Positions 6,546-53,003 of a DNA stretch of 63,056 nt are shown one piece after another; position 1 is the stretch's first letter; each line of letters opens with the position of its first letter. The notes under the pieces were generated by a model that searched no databases, was not told the DNA's origin, and saw nothing but the letters and a program-made list of their open reading frames with translations. A program made the position numbers and the translations under genes. The stretch comes from Thermococcus sp. EP1 (GTDB lineage Archaea > Methanobacteriota_B > Thermococci > Thermococcales > Thermococcaceae), in contig NZ_JXCG01000010.1 in the NCBI RefSeq assembly GCF_001317345.1, forward strand, positions 1 to 63,056. The letters run 5' to 3'.

Positions 6546-8759
6546 ATGGAAAAAAGATATCTTAGCCTGATTTTTATTCTGCTAATACTTAGCGTAACTT
6601 TCGCTGGATGCATAACTCAAACAAATACTAAAACAGAAACTCTCGTTATTCCGGAAGGAAACTACACAACTATTTATCTTAACGAGAAAGGCACCTCTCA
6701 ATGTCCAGCTTCCAAAGTGCCTGTGACCTTCACATACACGCCACCGAAGAATGAATCTATAGACTCGGTAAGTCTCCGGGGAAGCTTTAATGACTGGGCG
6801 GAATGGCCAATGCAAAAGGAAAATGGAGCATGGAGCATAACAGTCTGTCTTGAACCGGGAAGATACGAATATAAGTTTTTCATCAATGGAGAGTGGGTTA
6901 AAGATATGTCTTCTGACAAGTATGGTAATCCAGTGGATCCAGAAGCTGACGAGTACGTGGATGATGGATTCGGCGGGAAGAATGCTGTAAGGATTGTTGA
7001 AGGCAACATGGGGTTTGTCCTAGAACATAATCCTAGAGATCCTGCTTATCTCTGTGTAGCAGATAATAGAACAGTTGTGAGGTTTAAAACTAGACCAGGT
7101 CAAGTGCAGTCAGCAGTACTAGTTACAAACTTGGGGGAATACAACATGTCGCTCCAACTGTGGTGGGGTTCAGGAGAGATGTGGAGGGTAGAACTTCCAT
7201 TTGTTGAGCCGATTGAGTACTATATTAAGCTCACAACCCCTGATAATGAAGAATTCCTTGTACTGAATACTTCAACAGATGCATTTTTCTCTTTTGATGG
7301 CAATAACAGCTTTCCCCAAGTAGAGTGGGTAAGTAAAGGAGTAGGGTATCAGATCTTTCCGGAGAGATTTAACAATGGAGATCCAAGTAATGATGCATTA
7401 GCGTTACAAACAGACGAGTTTTGGTTTAATGAACTCATAGAGGATAGACCAATTCTTTCCAATTGGAGTGACCCAATAACACCCCTCCACTGTTGCCATC
7501 AGTACTTTGGTGGGGATATTAGAGGGATAATTGAGAAGCTTGATTATCTTCAAGAGCTTGGAGTAACTTTCATTTATCTCAACCCGATTTTCCTTGCTGG
7601 AAGTGCACATGGATATGACATTTATGATTACTATCGTGTTGACCCACAATTTGGAACGGATGAAGATCTTAAACTTCTCCTTGAAGAGGCTCATAAGCGG
7701 GGCATTAGGGTTATTTTTGACTTTGTGCCTAACCACAGTGGAATTGGCCATTGGGCATTTCTCGATGTAGCATCAAGGGGGAAGGAAAGTCCTTACTGGA
7801 ACTGGTATTTTGTCCAAAAATGGCCATTTAAACTGGGTGATGGTAAAGCTTACATAGGCTGGTGGGGTATTGGGAGCCTTCCAAAGCTTAATACGATGAA
7901 TCCGGAAGTTAAAGAATACCTTATAGGCGCAGCTCTTTATTGGCTTGATTTTGGGTTCGATGGCATCAGAGTTGATGTTCCAAATGAGCTTATAAATGCA
8001 GATGAATTCTTTTCAGAGCTCAGGCAAAGGGTTAAGGAAAAACATCCTGAGGCATATATTGTGGGAGAGATCTGGCAGCTTTCACCTAAGTGGGTTCAGG
8101 GGGATAAGTTTGACTCTCTGATGAACTACGCTCTTGGAAGAGATATTTTGCTCAATTATGCATTGGGCACATGGAATGGGGAAAGAACTCTTGAACTGCT
8201 TGGAAGATATTTTGCCAGCTATGGTGAAAATGTTGCAGCTATGGGCTTCAACCTGATTAGTTCCCATGATACGTCAAGACTCTTAACCGATCTGGGTGGA
8301 GGAAGATTTGGGGAAAATCCAAAGCCAGAGGCAATAGAAAGACTTAAAATGCTCTCTACACTGCTTTATAGCTTACCTGGAGCTCCAGTAACTTTTCAAG
8401 GTGATGAAAGAGGAATTTTGGGTGAAAAAGAGTATTATGATGCTCATAGATATCCTATTCAGTGGGATAAGGTGAACGAAGAAGTTCTTACTCATTATAA
8501 GGGACTTGGGATGCTGAGAAAAAGGATTCCAGCATTAACAAGTAGTGCAATAAAGCTTTACACAGCAAAAGATGGTGTGATAGCGTTTTTCAGGGGACAC
8601 GAAAATGAAGTTCTAGTTTTAGCAAACAATGGAAAAACTTCAACTTCAATTGCACTTCCCCCTGGGAAGTGGAAACTCGTCTGGCCGGCTGAAGAGGGAA
8701 TCTTTGAGGGAGAAATAGAAGTTCCACCAGTGATGACTTTAGTCCTTGAAAGAGAATAA
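6546..8759 (+). CDS. Secreted GH13 lipoprotein: pullulan/cyclodextrin hydrolase
   Basis: 737 residues. The N-terminus is a signal peptide ending in the lipobox FAGC, so a membrane-anchored extracellular enzyme is expected. A CBM48/20-like segment (RGSFNDWAEWPM, about residues 78-89) and a neopullulanase-type N domain precede the GH13 barrel. Barrel regions: I FDFVPNH (~390), II DGIRVD with nucleophile Asp (~476), III VGEIW with acid/base Glu (~507), IV SSHDT (~575). It would cut alpha-glucans, pullulan or cyclodextrins to oligosaccharides for uptake. Overall layout resembles Thermococcus type III pullulan hydrolases; exact bond specificity is not readable here. Confidence 0.88.
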   Translation: MEKRYLSLIFILLILSVTFAGCITQTNTKTETLVIPEGNYTTIYLNEKGTSQCPASKVPVTFTYTPPKNESIDSVSLRGSFNDWAEWPMQKENGAWSITVCLEPGRYEYKFFINGEWVKDMSSDKYGNPVDPEADEYVDDGFGGKNAVRIVEGNMGFVLEHNPRDPAYLCVADNRTVVRFKTRPGQVQSAVLVTNLGEYNMSLQLWWGSGEMWRVELPFVEPIEYYIKLTTPDNEEFLVLNTSTDAFFSFDGNNSFPQVEWVSKGVGYQIFPERFNNGDPSNDALALQTDEFWFNELIEDRPILSNWSDPITPLHCCHQYFGGDIRGIIEKLDYLQELGVTFIYLNPIFLAGSAHGYDIYDYYRVDPQFGTDEDLKLLLEEAHKRGIRVIFDFVPNHSGIGHWAFLDVASRGKESPYWNWYFVQKWPFKLGDGKAYIGWWGIGSLPKLNTMNPEVKEYLIGAALYWLDFGFDGIRVDVPNELINADEFFSELRQRVKEKHPEAYIVGEIWQLSPKWVQGDKFDSLMNYALGRDILLNYALGTWNGERTLELLGRYFASYGENVAAMGFNLISSHDTSRLLTDLGGGRFGENPKPEAIERLKMLSTLLYSLPGAPVTFQGDERGILGEKEYYDAHRYPIQWDKVNEEVLTHYKGLGMLRKRIPALTSSAIKLYTAKDGVIAFFRGHENEVLVLANNGKTSTSIALPPGKWKLVWPAEEGIFEGEIEVPPVMTLVLERE

Positions 8760-40565: not shown

Positions 40566-41201
40566 TTATATCATCACTTCCATACCGTCGATTTCGTTAT
40601 TCACTGACTTCACGACATTAAAGGAGAACCTCCTATCTTCCTTAGTTACCTTAATCACAGTAGTTGCCATGTTTTCAAACAATAACAAAGCATAAGGAAC
40701 ACTTTTCTCTAATAAATCAGTAGTAATAAAGTAGAATGCTATTCTTTTGGTCCCAGTGAAGGAGAGAACTGTGTTCATAGTGGTTAAAGTATCTTGCTTA
40801 GAATCAGCTATTAATAAAAGCTTTTCAAAACCCAAAACAGGATTAACTACTTTGTCATTTGGTGAGATGGACTTGAAAATTCTCCTATACTCACTCTCTC
40901 TAATAGAGGGCTCCTTGAGACTAATACGGCCGAGAATTTGACCAACCTCAAGCCTGCCCCCAGCCTTTATCACTTTAAGCTCGTCTAGAATACTTGTATC
41001 AAAACCAGCTAACTCCAAATGAATCTTATACATGTAAAGGGTGTCTAAAACATCATCCACCACTACAGTGTTCCCCTTCTCCCTAGCCCAACTTATTAAG
41101 TGATAAAATCCCAACACTGGACTTGTCACTGAGTCATGTTCAATTAAGACAGTTTCCCCATACTTTATTGAATTCCAAATCTTATGAAGGCTCTGTTCCA
41201 C
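40566..41201 (-). CDS. DUF257 family protein
   Basis: 211 residues resembling the Thermococcales-restricted DUF257 family, a RecA/KaiC-like fold without a recognisable Walker A: IKYGETVLIEHDSVTSPVLGFYHLISWA, NTVVVDDVLDTLYMY and TTTVIKV-type C-terminal strands. Function unknown. GTG 41201 is chosen since GGGAGGTGG lies four bases upstream; GTG 41210 is the alternative. Confidence 0.72.
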   Translation of the reverse strand: MEQSLHKIWNSIKYGETVLIEHDSVTSPVLGFYHLISWAREKGNTVVVDDVLDTLYMYKIHLELAGFDTSILDELKVIKAGGRLEVGQILGRISLKEPSIRESEYRRIFKSISPNDKVVNPVLGFEKLLLIADSKQDTLTTMNTVLSFTGTKRIAFYFITTDLLEKSVPYALLLFENMATTVIKVTKEDRRFSFNVVKSVNNEIDGMEVMI

Positions 41202-41454
41202 ACAGGCCACCTCCCATAACCCGATATTGGAAGTATTCCTTAAATATTTTGTGCAGATTTAAGCTCAAATATTGTAGAAGTTCTAATTTTTATACAAAAA
41301 TACTGAAAAAATCACAAAAATAATGAAATTTCCTGAAATTTGTAAACTATTGAGGATGTGAAATCAACCGTTGGTGTTGTTAATTTCTGTGGATCTTCCT
41401 AAAATAAGCAGACAGAAAATTCTCTTCCTTTAGAGACTTTTTTGAGAGGTGGTA

Positions 41455-48045: not shown

Positions 48046-49491
48046 TTATCTTTGTTCAAATACCTCATTAAAGACTTTTTCTGCAAACTTGGAAAGTTTG
48101 AGCCCTTCTTTTTTGGCAATCTTCTCTAAGAGTTTTTGAGCATTGGTTCCGTATTGGCAGGCCTTTTTCTCTCTATATGCCACTTCTTTGGGCAGTCCTA
48201 GTTCAAGGGCCACTTCTCTTAGGATAGCTTTTCTTGTTCCATTATGTATCTTATATTTCAGAGGTACTCTAAGTGCACTTTTGACCATATTAATGTCTAA
48301 AAATGGAAATCTCCCTTCTACGCTGTTAAGCATGGCAATCTTATCATCCCTTGCGAGGTTTTTCTCTCCCATTTCAGTTAGGTCCTTTTCCATAATCCTT
48401 GGATTGGTGAGATATTTTGCATATCCACCAAAAAGCTCGTCTGCACCCTGTCCACTTAAGAGTATTTTTGTCCCATCTTCGCTTGCGAGCTTTGTTGCAA
48501 AGTAAAGAGGAATACCTATTGCAAGATTCATGGCATTTGGCTCCTCTATGGCGAACATAACCGAGGGCACGGCATCTCTCACGTCATCGATGTCAAAAAC
48601 GTATTCTTTTAACTTTAGACCTAATTCCTCACTTACCTTCCTTGACCACTCTAAGTCTGGACTCCCCTCAGCTCCTGCTGTGTAAAGAGTAACCTTCTTT
48701 GAATACTTGGATGCGAGAATGGTTATTAATGAGCTGTCTAACCCTCCTGAAAATAGAATTCCTATCTTCTTACTACCTCTTAAGCGAATTGCGTAGTCCA
48801 AACTTCTGGTTATGCTCATTTTACTGTTGCTATAGTCAAAGAAGCTTCCCTTCATGTCTAAAACATTGAAAAGTTTGAACTGCTCAATTTTTCCATTGGA
48901 AATTCTTACTAGTTCTCCTGGTTTTACTGGAATGGCATTTTCCCCTATACTCCATAGTACTTTCTTTTCTGAGGCAAAAAATCCATTAGGGGAATAGTAT
49001 AGTGGCCTGACTCCTATGGGATCTCTGAAGAGGTAAATATCTTTTTTATCTGAGAAGGCCACTGCATAATCTCCATTTAAACTCGTCATTAACTTCTTTA
49101 CGGCTTGTGGTATTGGAATATTTTTTTCAATTAGGAATTCTAGAAGGCGGAGGATAACCTCAGTATCCACATCGCTTTCAAATTCAATCCCTCTCTTTTC
49201 CAAAAACGCCTTTATTTGGTGGTAATTGTAAATCTCACCATTGTGGACTAGGATAAATTCATTATAAAAAGGTTGAGTGAAGCTTTTTGATCCAGTCATC
49301 GCAAGACGACACTGTAAGAGGCCAATTTTACCGTCTGGAATCTCATTAATTTGGGAGAAGTCTTCACTTTTTAATACTCCTTCATTAGTCCATACTCCAA
49401 AAGAATCTCTCCCCCTATGTTTTCCAGAATTTATCATGGTTGCTAATTTGATCTTGAGGTTTTTTCCCATCCCACCAGCTATCAAGCACAT
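48046..49491 (-). CDS. asnB: Asparagine synthase-family amidotransferase
   Basis: 481 residues. The class II glutaminase domain starts MCLIAGGMG with nucleophile Cys2, then HRGRDSFG and LVHNGEIYNY. The synthetase domain has the PP-loop FSGGLDSSLI and SGQGADELFGGYAKYL. It amidates Asp or a related carboxylate using Gln and ATP. ATG 49491 is required so that Cys becomes residue 2; upstream codons are rejected. Shorter than bacterial AsnB (~550), typical for archaeal forms. Confidence 0.85.
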   Translation of the reverse strand: MCLIAGGMGKNLKIKLATMINSGKHRGRDSFGVWTNEGVLKSEDFSQINEIPDGKIGLLQCRLAMTGSKSFTQPFYNEFILVHNGEIYNYHQIKAFLEKRGIEFESDVDTEVILRLLEFLIEKNIPIPQAVKKLMTSLNGDYAVAFSDKKDIYLFRDPIGVRPLYYSPNGFFASEKKVLWSIGENAIPVKPGELVRISNGKIEQFKLFNVLDMKGSFFDYSNSKMSITRSLDYAIRLRGSKKIGILFSGGLDSSLITILASKYSKKVTLYTAGAEGSPDLEWSRKVSEELGLKLKEYVFDIDDVRDAVPSVMFAIEEPNAMNLAIGIPLYFATKLASEDGTKILLSGQGADELFGGYAKYLTNPRIMEKDLTEMGEKNLARDDKIAMLNSVEGRFPFLDINMVKSALRVPLKYKIHNGTRKAILREVALELGLPKEVAYREKKACQYGTNAQKLLEKIAKKEGLKLSKFAEKVFNEVFEQR

Positions 49492-49616
49492 TATTCTCAC
49501 CAGCCTTTCTAAGAGAGAAGAAGCTAAAAACTTTCCCTGTTTCTTTCTGAAAAGGGGTTCATTTTTCTAGGGTAACAAATGAACAAAAACTTGTCTGCGA
49601 TGTAATTTGATGAATC

Positions 49617-49751
49617 TCAGGTCAAGTCCCCGCAGGTGCAATAATGCTCATAAGCTACAGTTTCAAGGTCTTCAAACCCCTCTCTCCTTTTTGCTGAGAG
49701 GTATAGGACTCTAACAGGAGGGGATACTTCAGGTAAAATCTTACACAATTT
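49617..49751 (-). pseudogene. 3' remainder of GPN GTPase after in-frame TAG
   Basis: Directly after the TAG at 49752-49754 the same frame continues for 44 sense codons to TGA (49617-49619): KLCKILPEVSPPVRVLYLSA then GFEDLETVAYEHYCTCGDL. These match the conserved C-terminus of archaeal GPN GTPases. The full frame 49617-50369 would be 250 residues, the family's normal size. A single-base change of a Tyr codon to TAG explains it. Confidence 0.75.
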
Positions 49752-50369
49752 CTATGCTAAAAGTGATTGCATGGACGTTTCAAGGTTTAGACGAGTCGAG
49801 AGATACTCAACATCTTCTAGATACTTTTTAATTTCTGTTAAATTCTCAAGGAGATCCACTTTGTTAAGCCCTGGTATTGTTGTGGTGCCGAGTCGGAGGT
49901 CTATCATCAAGGTGAAGAATTTAACAAAACAGTAGTCGTGAGGTTTCTGGAGTATTGTTGGGTCGAAAAGATAAATGACAAGTGGATAAGGTATGTTTTC
50001 CATTAACTTAACCCCAAATTCGTGAAATAAGAATGTTTCCATCTGCCCGGGTGTGTCTATCAACACATAATCGTTTTCTTTCTCCAGCTCCAGTATTTTA
50101 GGGAGGTAGTAGTTTACATGAGCCATTAGCCTATCGTAGCTTTCTACTATAGCTCCGTTGGGCCCATATCCTTCTTTCATAAGGTCTTCAACGGTAATGT
50201 GTTCTCTGACATCAATATCTGCTTTGTATGGAATCCTCTTTACACCTGTGTCTAGATTAACATAGGCAACCTTATTCCCATTCTCTACTAAGTATCTTCC
50301 AAATTCTGCCGTTAAAGTGGTTTTTCCACTTCCGGCTGTTCCCACAAAAGTCAATATCACTTCCTCCAC
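49752..50369 (-). CDS. GPN-loop GTPase, truncated by an amber codon
   Basis: 205 residues to the TAG. P-loop GTAGSGKTT, the diagnostic GPN insert (GYGPNGA), DTPGQMETFLFHE and base-recognition LNKVDLL are intact. GPN GTPases are dimers conserved in archaea and eukaryotes (RNA polymerase II assembly in the latter). The loss of the C-terminal helices would probably harm dimerisation. It is 2 bp downstream of minD and co-transcribed. Sequencing error, real mutation and stop readthrough cannot be told apart here. Confidence 0.85.
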   Translation of the reverse strand: MEEVILTFVGTAGSGKTTLTAEFGRYLVENGNKVAYVNLDTGVKRIPYKADIDVREHITVEDLMKEGYGPNGAIVESYDRLMAHVNYYLPKILELEKENDYVLIDTPGQMETFLFHEFGVKLMENIPYPLVIYLFDPTILQKPHDYCFVKFFTLMIDLRLGTTTIPGLNKVDLLENLTEIKKYLEDVEYLSTRLNLETSMQSLLA

Positions 50370-50371
50370 CG

Positions 50372-51094
50372 TTATAATTCCTCTTCCGTTTTTATGAGGT
50401 TCTGTGCAGTTTCGATTATTGCTCGACTAGCTTTTGTATCTGGGTCATAAACTAGTACTGGCATTCCACTAAGGGCTGCTTCTCTAACTTTCGGGTCCTC
50501 AGGGATGATCCCTAAGAGGGGGAATTCCATTATTTCTTCAGCTATCTCGGGTGAGATCCCATTTTTATGAGGTTCATAACGATTAAAAATGAATCCTAGA
50601 ACGTTTTTTCCAGCCTTTTTCAAAATTATTCCAACTTTCATGGTGTCGCTTATACTGGCTATCTCAGGGTTCGTGATTAATAATACTTCCTCTCCACTTA
50701 ACATTGCGCTCATAGCATCCATCTGTAACCCTGCGGGGCAGTCTAAGAGCACGTAATCAAATTCGTCCTTTATTTGTGGAATAACTTCGGGTAAATCTCT
50801 TGGATCTGCCTTAGCAACATGTTCCCAATCAAATGCCCCTGGAATCAGATATACGAATTCATATCTGGTTGTGTGAATCGCCTGCTTAATGTCTATTTCT
50901 CCCATTAGAACATCGTGAATAGTTTTGGTTGTATCCTCCAGGCCAAAGTGTAGAGTTAGATTTGCCATTGTTAAGTCCGCGTCTACGGCACAAACTTTTT
51001 TTCCCAGTAAGCCTAATGCCATGGAGAGATTGGCTATCATAGTTGTTTTTCCGGTTCCACCTTTTCCAGAGGCCACTGCGATAATTCTTCCCAT
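50372..51094 (-). CDS. MinD/ParA-family ATPase
   Basis: 240 residues: deviant Walker A GKGGTGKTT (10-18), VDADLTMANLTLHFGLE, Walker B YVLLDCPAG. The C-terminal end lacks an obvious amphipathic membrane helix. Archaeal MinD homologues position chemotaxis or motility structures or act in other spatial roles. GGGGGAAA precedes the ATG. Operon with the GPN GTPase. Confidence 0.88.
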   Translation of the reverse strand: MGRIIAVASGKGGTGKTTMIANLSMALGLLGKKVCAVDADLTMANLTLHFGLEDTTKTIHDVLMGEIDIKQAIHTTRYEFVYLIPGAFDWEHVAKADPRDLPEVIPQIKDEFDYVLLDCPAGLQMDAMSAMLSGEEVLLITNPEIASISDTMKVGIILKKAGKNVLGFIFNRYEPHKNGISPEIAEEIMEFPLLGIIPEDPKVREAALSGMPVLVYDPDTKASRAIIETAQNLIKTEEEL

Positions 51095-51194
51095 AATATT
51101 TCCCCCAATAAAATTCCTACTAAACCTTTATGAACTTTTACCAAAAGGTTATAAACAGAGAGGTCAAGTTGAGGCGCCGTGAGGGGTGAGGAAA

Positions 51195-53003
51195 ATGAAA
51201 GTATTTGTTGTTGATACGAGTGTTATAGTGGATGGGAGACTAACCCAATACTTAGAGAGAATTAATGAGAAAGTTAAGGTGGTTATCCCAGAGGCTGTTG
51301 TTGCTGAGATAGAACATCAAGCTAATGAGGGTAAGGCTATTGGTCATACTGGATTGGAGGAACTTAAGAAGCTTAGAAGTCTAGCTGAGAGAGATAAAAT
51401 TCTGTTGGAGTTCTATGGCGAGAGGCCTGATCTCTGGCAGATAAGGAGAGCTAAGGCTGGAGAAGTTGATCACATGATAAGAGAGGTCGCTAGAGAGCTG
51501 AATGCAGTCCTCATAACTGGTGACCAAGTACAGAGAGACATTGCCATAGCGAAGGGGATTGAAGTAATCTATTTAGAGGCCAGAAAGGAAGTAAAGCACC
51601 GTCTCGAGGATTTCTTTGACGAACATACCATGAGTGTTCACCTAAAGGCAGGTGTAAGACCTTTAGCCAAAAAGGGTAAACCTGGTCAGTGGAGATTAGT
51701 TCCCATAAAAGAGGAAGAACTAACTGATGCAGAGCTTGAGGAAATAGCGGATGACATAGTTGAGAGAGCTAAAAGGGACCCAGAATCATTTATAGAGCTT
51801 GATGAGCTTGGTGCAACAGTGGTGCAGCTTAGGAATTATCGTATAGTCATAGCAAAGCCGCCATTTGCTGACAGGATAGAAATAACGGCAGTAAGGCCCA
51901 TAATCAAGTTAAGTATTGAAGACTATGATATTCCAGAGAAGCTTTTAGAGCGTTTAACAGACAAGGCCGAAGGTATTCTGATTGGTGGTGCTCCAGGGGA
52001 AGGAAAAACCACTTTTGCCCAGGCTTTAGCAGAGTATTATGCGTCCATGGGTAAGATCGTGAAAACAATGGAAAAGCCCAGGGATCTTCAAGTTAGTGAG
52101 GAGATAACTCAATACACTGCCCTTGCAGGGAAAATGGAAAAAACAGGAGACGTCCTTCTTTTAGTTAGGCCTGATTATACAATATTTGATGAAATGAGAA
52201 AAACAAGTGACTTCCAGATTTACGCTGACTTACGACTTGCTGGTGTTGGAATGGTTGGTGTTGTTCACGCTACAAAGCCTATAGATGCTATCCAGAGGTT
52301 CATTGGAAGGGTAGAACTTGGAATGATTCCGCAAATAGTGGATACCGTAATATTCATCAAAGCTGGGGGCGTTGACAAAGTTTTAACTCTCGAGTACAAG
52401 GTTAAAGTTCCCAGTGGAATGACAGAAGAGGATTTGGCCAGACCTGTAATTGAGGTTAGAGACTTCGTGACTGGTGAGCTAGAGTACGAGATATACACCT
52501 ACGGTGAGGAGATAAGTGTTGTACCTGTGAAGAAAAAGGAGAAGCCACCCGCAATGAAATTAGCAGAAAAGAAGCTTAAACAAGAAATTAAAAAATTCCT
52601 ACCAGATGTTTATACAGAGGTTGAGCTTGCAAGTCCCCATAAGGCCGTAATATATGCAGATGAATTTGATATACCTACCATTATAGGTAAAAAGGGCAAA
52701 AGAATCACGGAAATCGAGAAAAAGCTTGGAATAAGCATAGATGTCAGAAGTTTTGAGGAGAAGATGGTAGAAATGCCGACGGAGAAAATAACAGTTGAAG
52801 TTGAAGAAAAGAAAAAGCAAATAGTTCTCAGAGTTTCACCGGATTTTGCAAAGAAGCCTCTCAAGTTCTTTGCAGGCGATGAATACATCTTCACTGCAAC
52901 TCCATCGAGAAAGGGTCTGATTAAGGTTAATAAGAACACTCCAATAGGGAGAGAACTAAGGAGAGCTTTAGAAGCAGGAATAGAGCTTTGGGCATCTCTT
53001 TAA
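51195..53003 (+). CDS. PIN-domain/KH ATPase (PINA-type)
   Basis: 602 residues: N-terminal PIN domain with acidic residues (VVDTSVIVDGRL, EIEHQANEGK, LITGDQ), a central PilT/VirB11-like ATPase with Walker A GGAPGEGKTT and IFDEMRKTSDF, and a C-terminal KH motif (IPTIIGKKGKRITEIEKKLG). Crenarchaeal PINA acts in Holliday-junction processing, so a DNA-repair role is likely by homology. ATG 51195 follows GGGGTGAGG. Divergent from minD. Confidence 0.88.
   Translation: MKVFVVDTSVIVDGRLTQYLERINEKVKVVIPEAVVAEIEHQANEGKAIGHTGLEELKKLRSLAERDKILLEFYGERPDLWQIRRAKAGEVDHMIREVARELNAVLITGDQVQRDIAIAKGIEVIYLEARKEVKHRLEDFFDEHTMSVHLKAGVRPLAKKGKPGQWRLVPIKEEELTDAELEEIADDIVERAKRDPESFIELDELGATVVQLRNYRIVIAKPPFADRIEITAVRPIIKLSIEDYDIPEKLLERLTDKAEGILIGGAPGEGKTTFAQALAEYYASMGKIVKTMEKPRDLQVSEEITQYTALAGKMEKTGDVLLLVRPDYTIFDEMRKTSDFQIYADLRLAGVGMVGVVHATKPIDAIQRFIGRVELGMIPQIVDTVIFIKAGGVDKVLTLEYKVKVPSGMTEEDLARPVIEVRDFVTGELEYEIYTYGEEISVVPVKKKEKPPAMKLAEKKLKQEIKKFLPDVYTEVELASPHKAVIYADEFDIPTIIGKKGKRITEIEKKLGISIDVRSFEEKMVEMPTEKITVEVEEKKKQIVLRVSPDFAKKPLKFFAGDEYIFTATPSRKGLIKVNKNTPIGRELRRALEAGIELWASL

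Follow-up and report, generated by a model that had tools for sequence, protein, structure and literature searches.

The single-copy gene for a GPN-loop GTPase in this genome, a member of the Thermococcaceae, is interrupted by one in-frame TAG codon, which most probably represents a recent natural nonsense mutation in a dispensable gene. The gene lies in the window, by which we mean the whole stretch of 63,056 nucleotides that was analysed. It corresponds to contig C10 of a draft assembly of 1.82 Mb in 43 contigs, which is 95.9% complete and the only assembly of this genome that the analysis covered. Matches to the C/D-box RNA families sR19, sR39 and sR47, and a comparison with named Thermococcus sequences, assign the genome to the Thermococcaceae. 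The features of the locus are the following.

48046 to 49500, minus strand: asparagine-synthase-like gene, downstream neighbour, intact
49617 to 50369, minus strand: GPN-loop GTPase gene (PF03029, NF010339) with one in-frame TAG inside, orthologue of Pyrococcus PAB0955
49617 to 49751, minus strand: orphaned 3' part, 44 codons and TGA, with G5 (SAK), the last strand and helix and the invariant CTCGDLT tail
49752 to 49754, minus strand: premature TAG at codon 206, TAC in genomes G009, G005 and G003
49755 to 50369, minus strand: remaining open part of 205 codons, keeping the P-loop (G1), the GPN loop, DTPGQ (G3) and NKVD (G4)
50372 to 51094, minus strand: minD-like ATPase gene, upstream neighbour at a distance of 2 bases, intact
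51186 to 53003, plus strand: PIN-ATPase-KH gene (PINA-like), divergent flank and synteny marker

The reading frame starts with GTG at 50369, runs through 205 sense codons to the TAG at 49754-49752, and continues for another 44 sense codons up to the TGA at 49619-49617, so that read-through gives a translation of 250 residues. An earlier note on this DNA had described exactly this arrangement and assigned the gene to the GPN GTPases; translation confirmed it in every detail, and the PF03029 (ATP_bind_1) profile matches the read-through protein over positions 1-239 of 240 with 203.9 bits and the one TAG inside. The open codons alone (204 scored) still reach 178.4 bits, above the cut-off of this family. 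The read-through protein aligns with its orthologues up to the last residue at 62-96% identity, and likewise with the family of the Pyrococcus structure 1yr6, while the tail CTCGDLT is identical in every Thermococcaceae copy read. The 44 codons past the TAG are thus real coding sequence and no chance extension, and the resemblance to the conserved GPN C-terminus proposed in the earlier note holds. The G1, GPN loop, DTPGQ and NKxD motifs are all encoded 5' of the TAG. The G5 motif (SAK) and the C-terminal part are encoded 3' of it and are consequently outside the translated product. The gene is a member of the GPN family by descent, but it is broken as a product. Compared to Pyrococcus abyssi PAB0955 (PaGPN; PDB 1yr6 series; NF010339), a full-length orthologue that shares its motifs and its C-terminal tail, it differs in the stop at codon 206, and its open codons score 358 bits against NF010339, below the cut-off of 414.

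The stop is restricted to this genome. We found the GPN gene in 77 of the 94 Thermococcaceae genomes searched (one further match, the 78th, was short and unrelated; it lies in G091 and was left out), and an internal stop occurs in this one only. In the nearest genomes, G009 and G005, the GPN proteins are 96% and 93% identical and codon 206 is TAC, as it is in the more distant G003. Throughout the Thermococcaceae copies read, this codon nearly always specifies Tyr, with His or Asn in a few, which agrees with the expectation of a Tyr at this site that had been put forward from the sequence. A single C-to-G change (TAC to TAG) is sufficient to explain the stop. A conserved programmed stop was rejected, because no relative among the gene-bearing family genomes has a stop at this position.

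The surroundings of the gene show the order that is usual for the family. The divergent PINA-like gene, minD, GPN and the asparagine-synthase-like gene follow each other in the same way in the majority of the relatives compared. The genomes of genus g2 depart from this: they keep minD together with GPN, and the other two locus genes are not adjacent. The comparison of the window with G009 and G005 also revealed two differences at other places. An alpha-amylase-family gene of 737 residues (window 6546-8759, plus strand) has no counterpart in the stretches of the two relatives that were compared, although its flanks are otherwise about 94% identical to them; as judged from this comparison, it is strain-specific gene content. 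A DUF257 gene (window 40566-41210, minus strand) is 92% identical to G005 and only 66% to G009 within a region that is otherwise 95% identical, which suggests replacement or recombination.

The pattern of substitutions bears on the age of the stop. As unique changes we counted codons that differ in this genome only, at sites where the G009 and G005 codons are identical. In the GPN gene 4 nonsynonymous and 9 synonymous unique sense changes are present, with the stop as an extra one, versus 96 nonsynonymous and 511 synonymous changes for the whole window. Against the rest of the window (92:502) the ratio of 4:9 is a non-significant excess of nonsynonymous changes, with a Fisher p of 0.13 without the stop and of 0.055 with it. 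None of the unique nonsynonymous changes falls past the TAG. From these counts the gene appears to have been constrained along the greater part of the branch; the stop would be either recent or an error.

We propose that one base change, from TAC to TAG, recently introduced a nonsense codon into the single-copy GPN gene of this strain or population and inactivated it. Translation would end at codon 206 and leave a fragment of 205 residues, probably unstable or inactive, that would lack, besides the G5 motif and the C-terminal tail, the last helix and a strand of the central sheet. The cell would tolerate this loss because the gene is dispensable in Thermococcaceae. The stop, its restriction to this genome, the TAC of the relatives, the normal use of stop codons and the repeated absence of the gene elsewhere in the family are observed directly; the reality of the base, the inactivity of the fragment and the fixation of the mutation are inferred. 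In its single-base stop, its intact remaining frame and the dispensability of the gene, the case resembles other prokaryotic nonsense pseudogenes and strain-specific null alleles, from which nothing distinctive sets this gene apart.

The main rival to a natural mutation is a sequencing or assembly error, with the gene intact in the organism and one wrong base in the draft, and we regard it as rather unlikely but as a serious candidate. The assembly is a draft of 43 contigs, only one base separates the sequence from an intact gene, about 5% of the single-base changes in this gene create a stop, and the lack of any other decay in the gene is equally the look of a base-call error. However, the error rate needed for this was not seen. 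Apart from start-site differences and the stretch ends, reciprocal comparison with G009 and G005 showed no other window gene interrupted by a frameshift or a premature stop. When 160 kb sampled from contig C1 were compared with G009, none of 128 genes was broken either; window and sample together cover about 180 orthologous genes and about 220 kb. A generally poor assembly was rejected on these grounds, and a high error rate is unlikely, while a single base is still not cleared by them. Since the locus was picked for having a stop, the low error rate of the sample carries less weight than might at first appear. Natural loss, in addition, is common in this very gene (see below), which likewise speaks against an error.

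Decoding of the TAG, as Tyr by near-cognate misreading, by a suppressor tRNA or as pyrrolysine, would give full-length GPN, and it is in agreement with the conserved frame past the stop. We nevertheless hold it to be very improbable. TAG terminates 11 of the 45 window genes, at the same place as in the orthologues, and is swapped with TAA in some of them; it is therefore a normal stop here, and a genome-wide reassignment of this common, conserved terminator was rejected. Neither the PylS N-terminal domain (TIGR03912) nor MtmB (PF05369) was found in the genome, while a Methanosarcina control matched, and pyrrolysine decoding was discarded as well. None of the 43 tRNAs of the assembly has a CUA anticodon. 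One intron-containing tRNA at C6:62555-62659 (stretch L146) was missed by ARAGORN in bacterial mode; its anticodon reads CAT by eye. With this lone uncalled tRNA being CAT and no CUA anticodon present, a suppressor tRNA was rejected. A small loophole is left by the missing 4% of the genome, in which such a tRNA could sit: the assembly (96% complete) yielded no tRNA-Trp, and two tRNA-Val are missing from it as well. Taken together, the lack of a pyrrolysine gene, of a CUA tRNA and of a stop shared with any relative disfavours recoding. That a tyrosine tRNA reads through TAG 206 at a useful level and so provides full-length GPN is more doubtful still; if it were true, a hyperthermophilic archaeon without pyrrolysine would make a full-length GPN from a stop-interrupted gene.

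The position of the stop within the fold is informative for the fate of the truncated protein. In an AlphaFold2 model (alignment of 22 sequences, mean pLDDT 91.6) residue 206 is located in the middle of helix 200-215, and the part past the stop is predicted to comprise the rest of this helix and a further one (232-244), a strand near 222-224, G5 at 225-227 and the tail. As the lost part thus includes G5 and a strand of the core, together with the last helix and the invariant tail, the 205-residue product is, on the strength of the model, probably inactive. A functional split or shortened GPN, with the 205-residue part working alone or together with a reinitiated piece of 43 residues (putative reinitiation codon TTG, two codons past the TAG), is the least credible reading: G1, GPN, G3 and G4 all lie upstream of the stop, but the elements named are lost and a split form occurs in no relative.

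Loss of a GPN GTPase is lethal in eukaryotes. The earlier note, which had named mutation, error and readthrough as options and thereby the right set, expected a real loss to be striking as the gene is broadly conserved. This expectation fails for the Thermococcaceae. Among the 74 near-complete genomes of the family, nine have no GPN gene and no full-length PF03029 match. In G012, a closed genome from the same genus that the flanking-gene tree places as sister to this species trio, minD ends 85 bases before the asparagine-synthase frame, and GPN is missing in between (L155:2595-2680). GPN is likewise missing between minD and the asparagine-synthase gene in G082, G100, G104 and G105 (stretches L157, L127, L126 and L120), and in G065, G072, G086, G091 and G101 minD is present and GPN absent, with the asparagine-synthase gene not adjoining. 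Parsimony on a flanking-protein tree gives about eight separate losses, an approximate number, because support is weak at some nodes and the count considered losses only. Genomes of the same class outside the family (G037-G057) gave no full-length match. For the single archaeal paralogue of the same family in Sulfolobus acidocaldarius, SaGPN (Saci_1281; PDB 7zhf, 7zhk), which is distant in sequence, loss was tolerated experimentally: the deletion strain grew normally and showed reduced motility (PMC10746158). In view of the nine absences, the repeated losses and this viable deletion, a GPN loss such as the one proposed here is not surprising.

The reduced motility of the SaGPN deletion raises the question of the archaellum. 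All nine near-complete genomes without GPN have archaellin genes, in contrast to 13 of the 65 near-complete GPN-bearing genomes in which archaellin is missing, and a tie between GPN loss and archaellum loss was rejected. Since the nine keep their archaellin genes, the motility role known from Sulfolobus does not by itself explain the pattern of loss. Taken alone, the interrupted gene is an ordinary broken gene; its value is that of one case in a pattern of repeated GPN loss. The Thermococcaceae lose GPN repeatedly at one fixed locus and thus offer natural knock-outs for the role of GPN in archaea and for its compensation.
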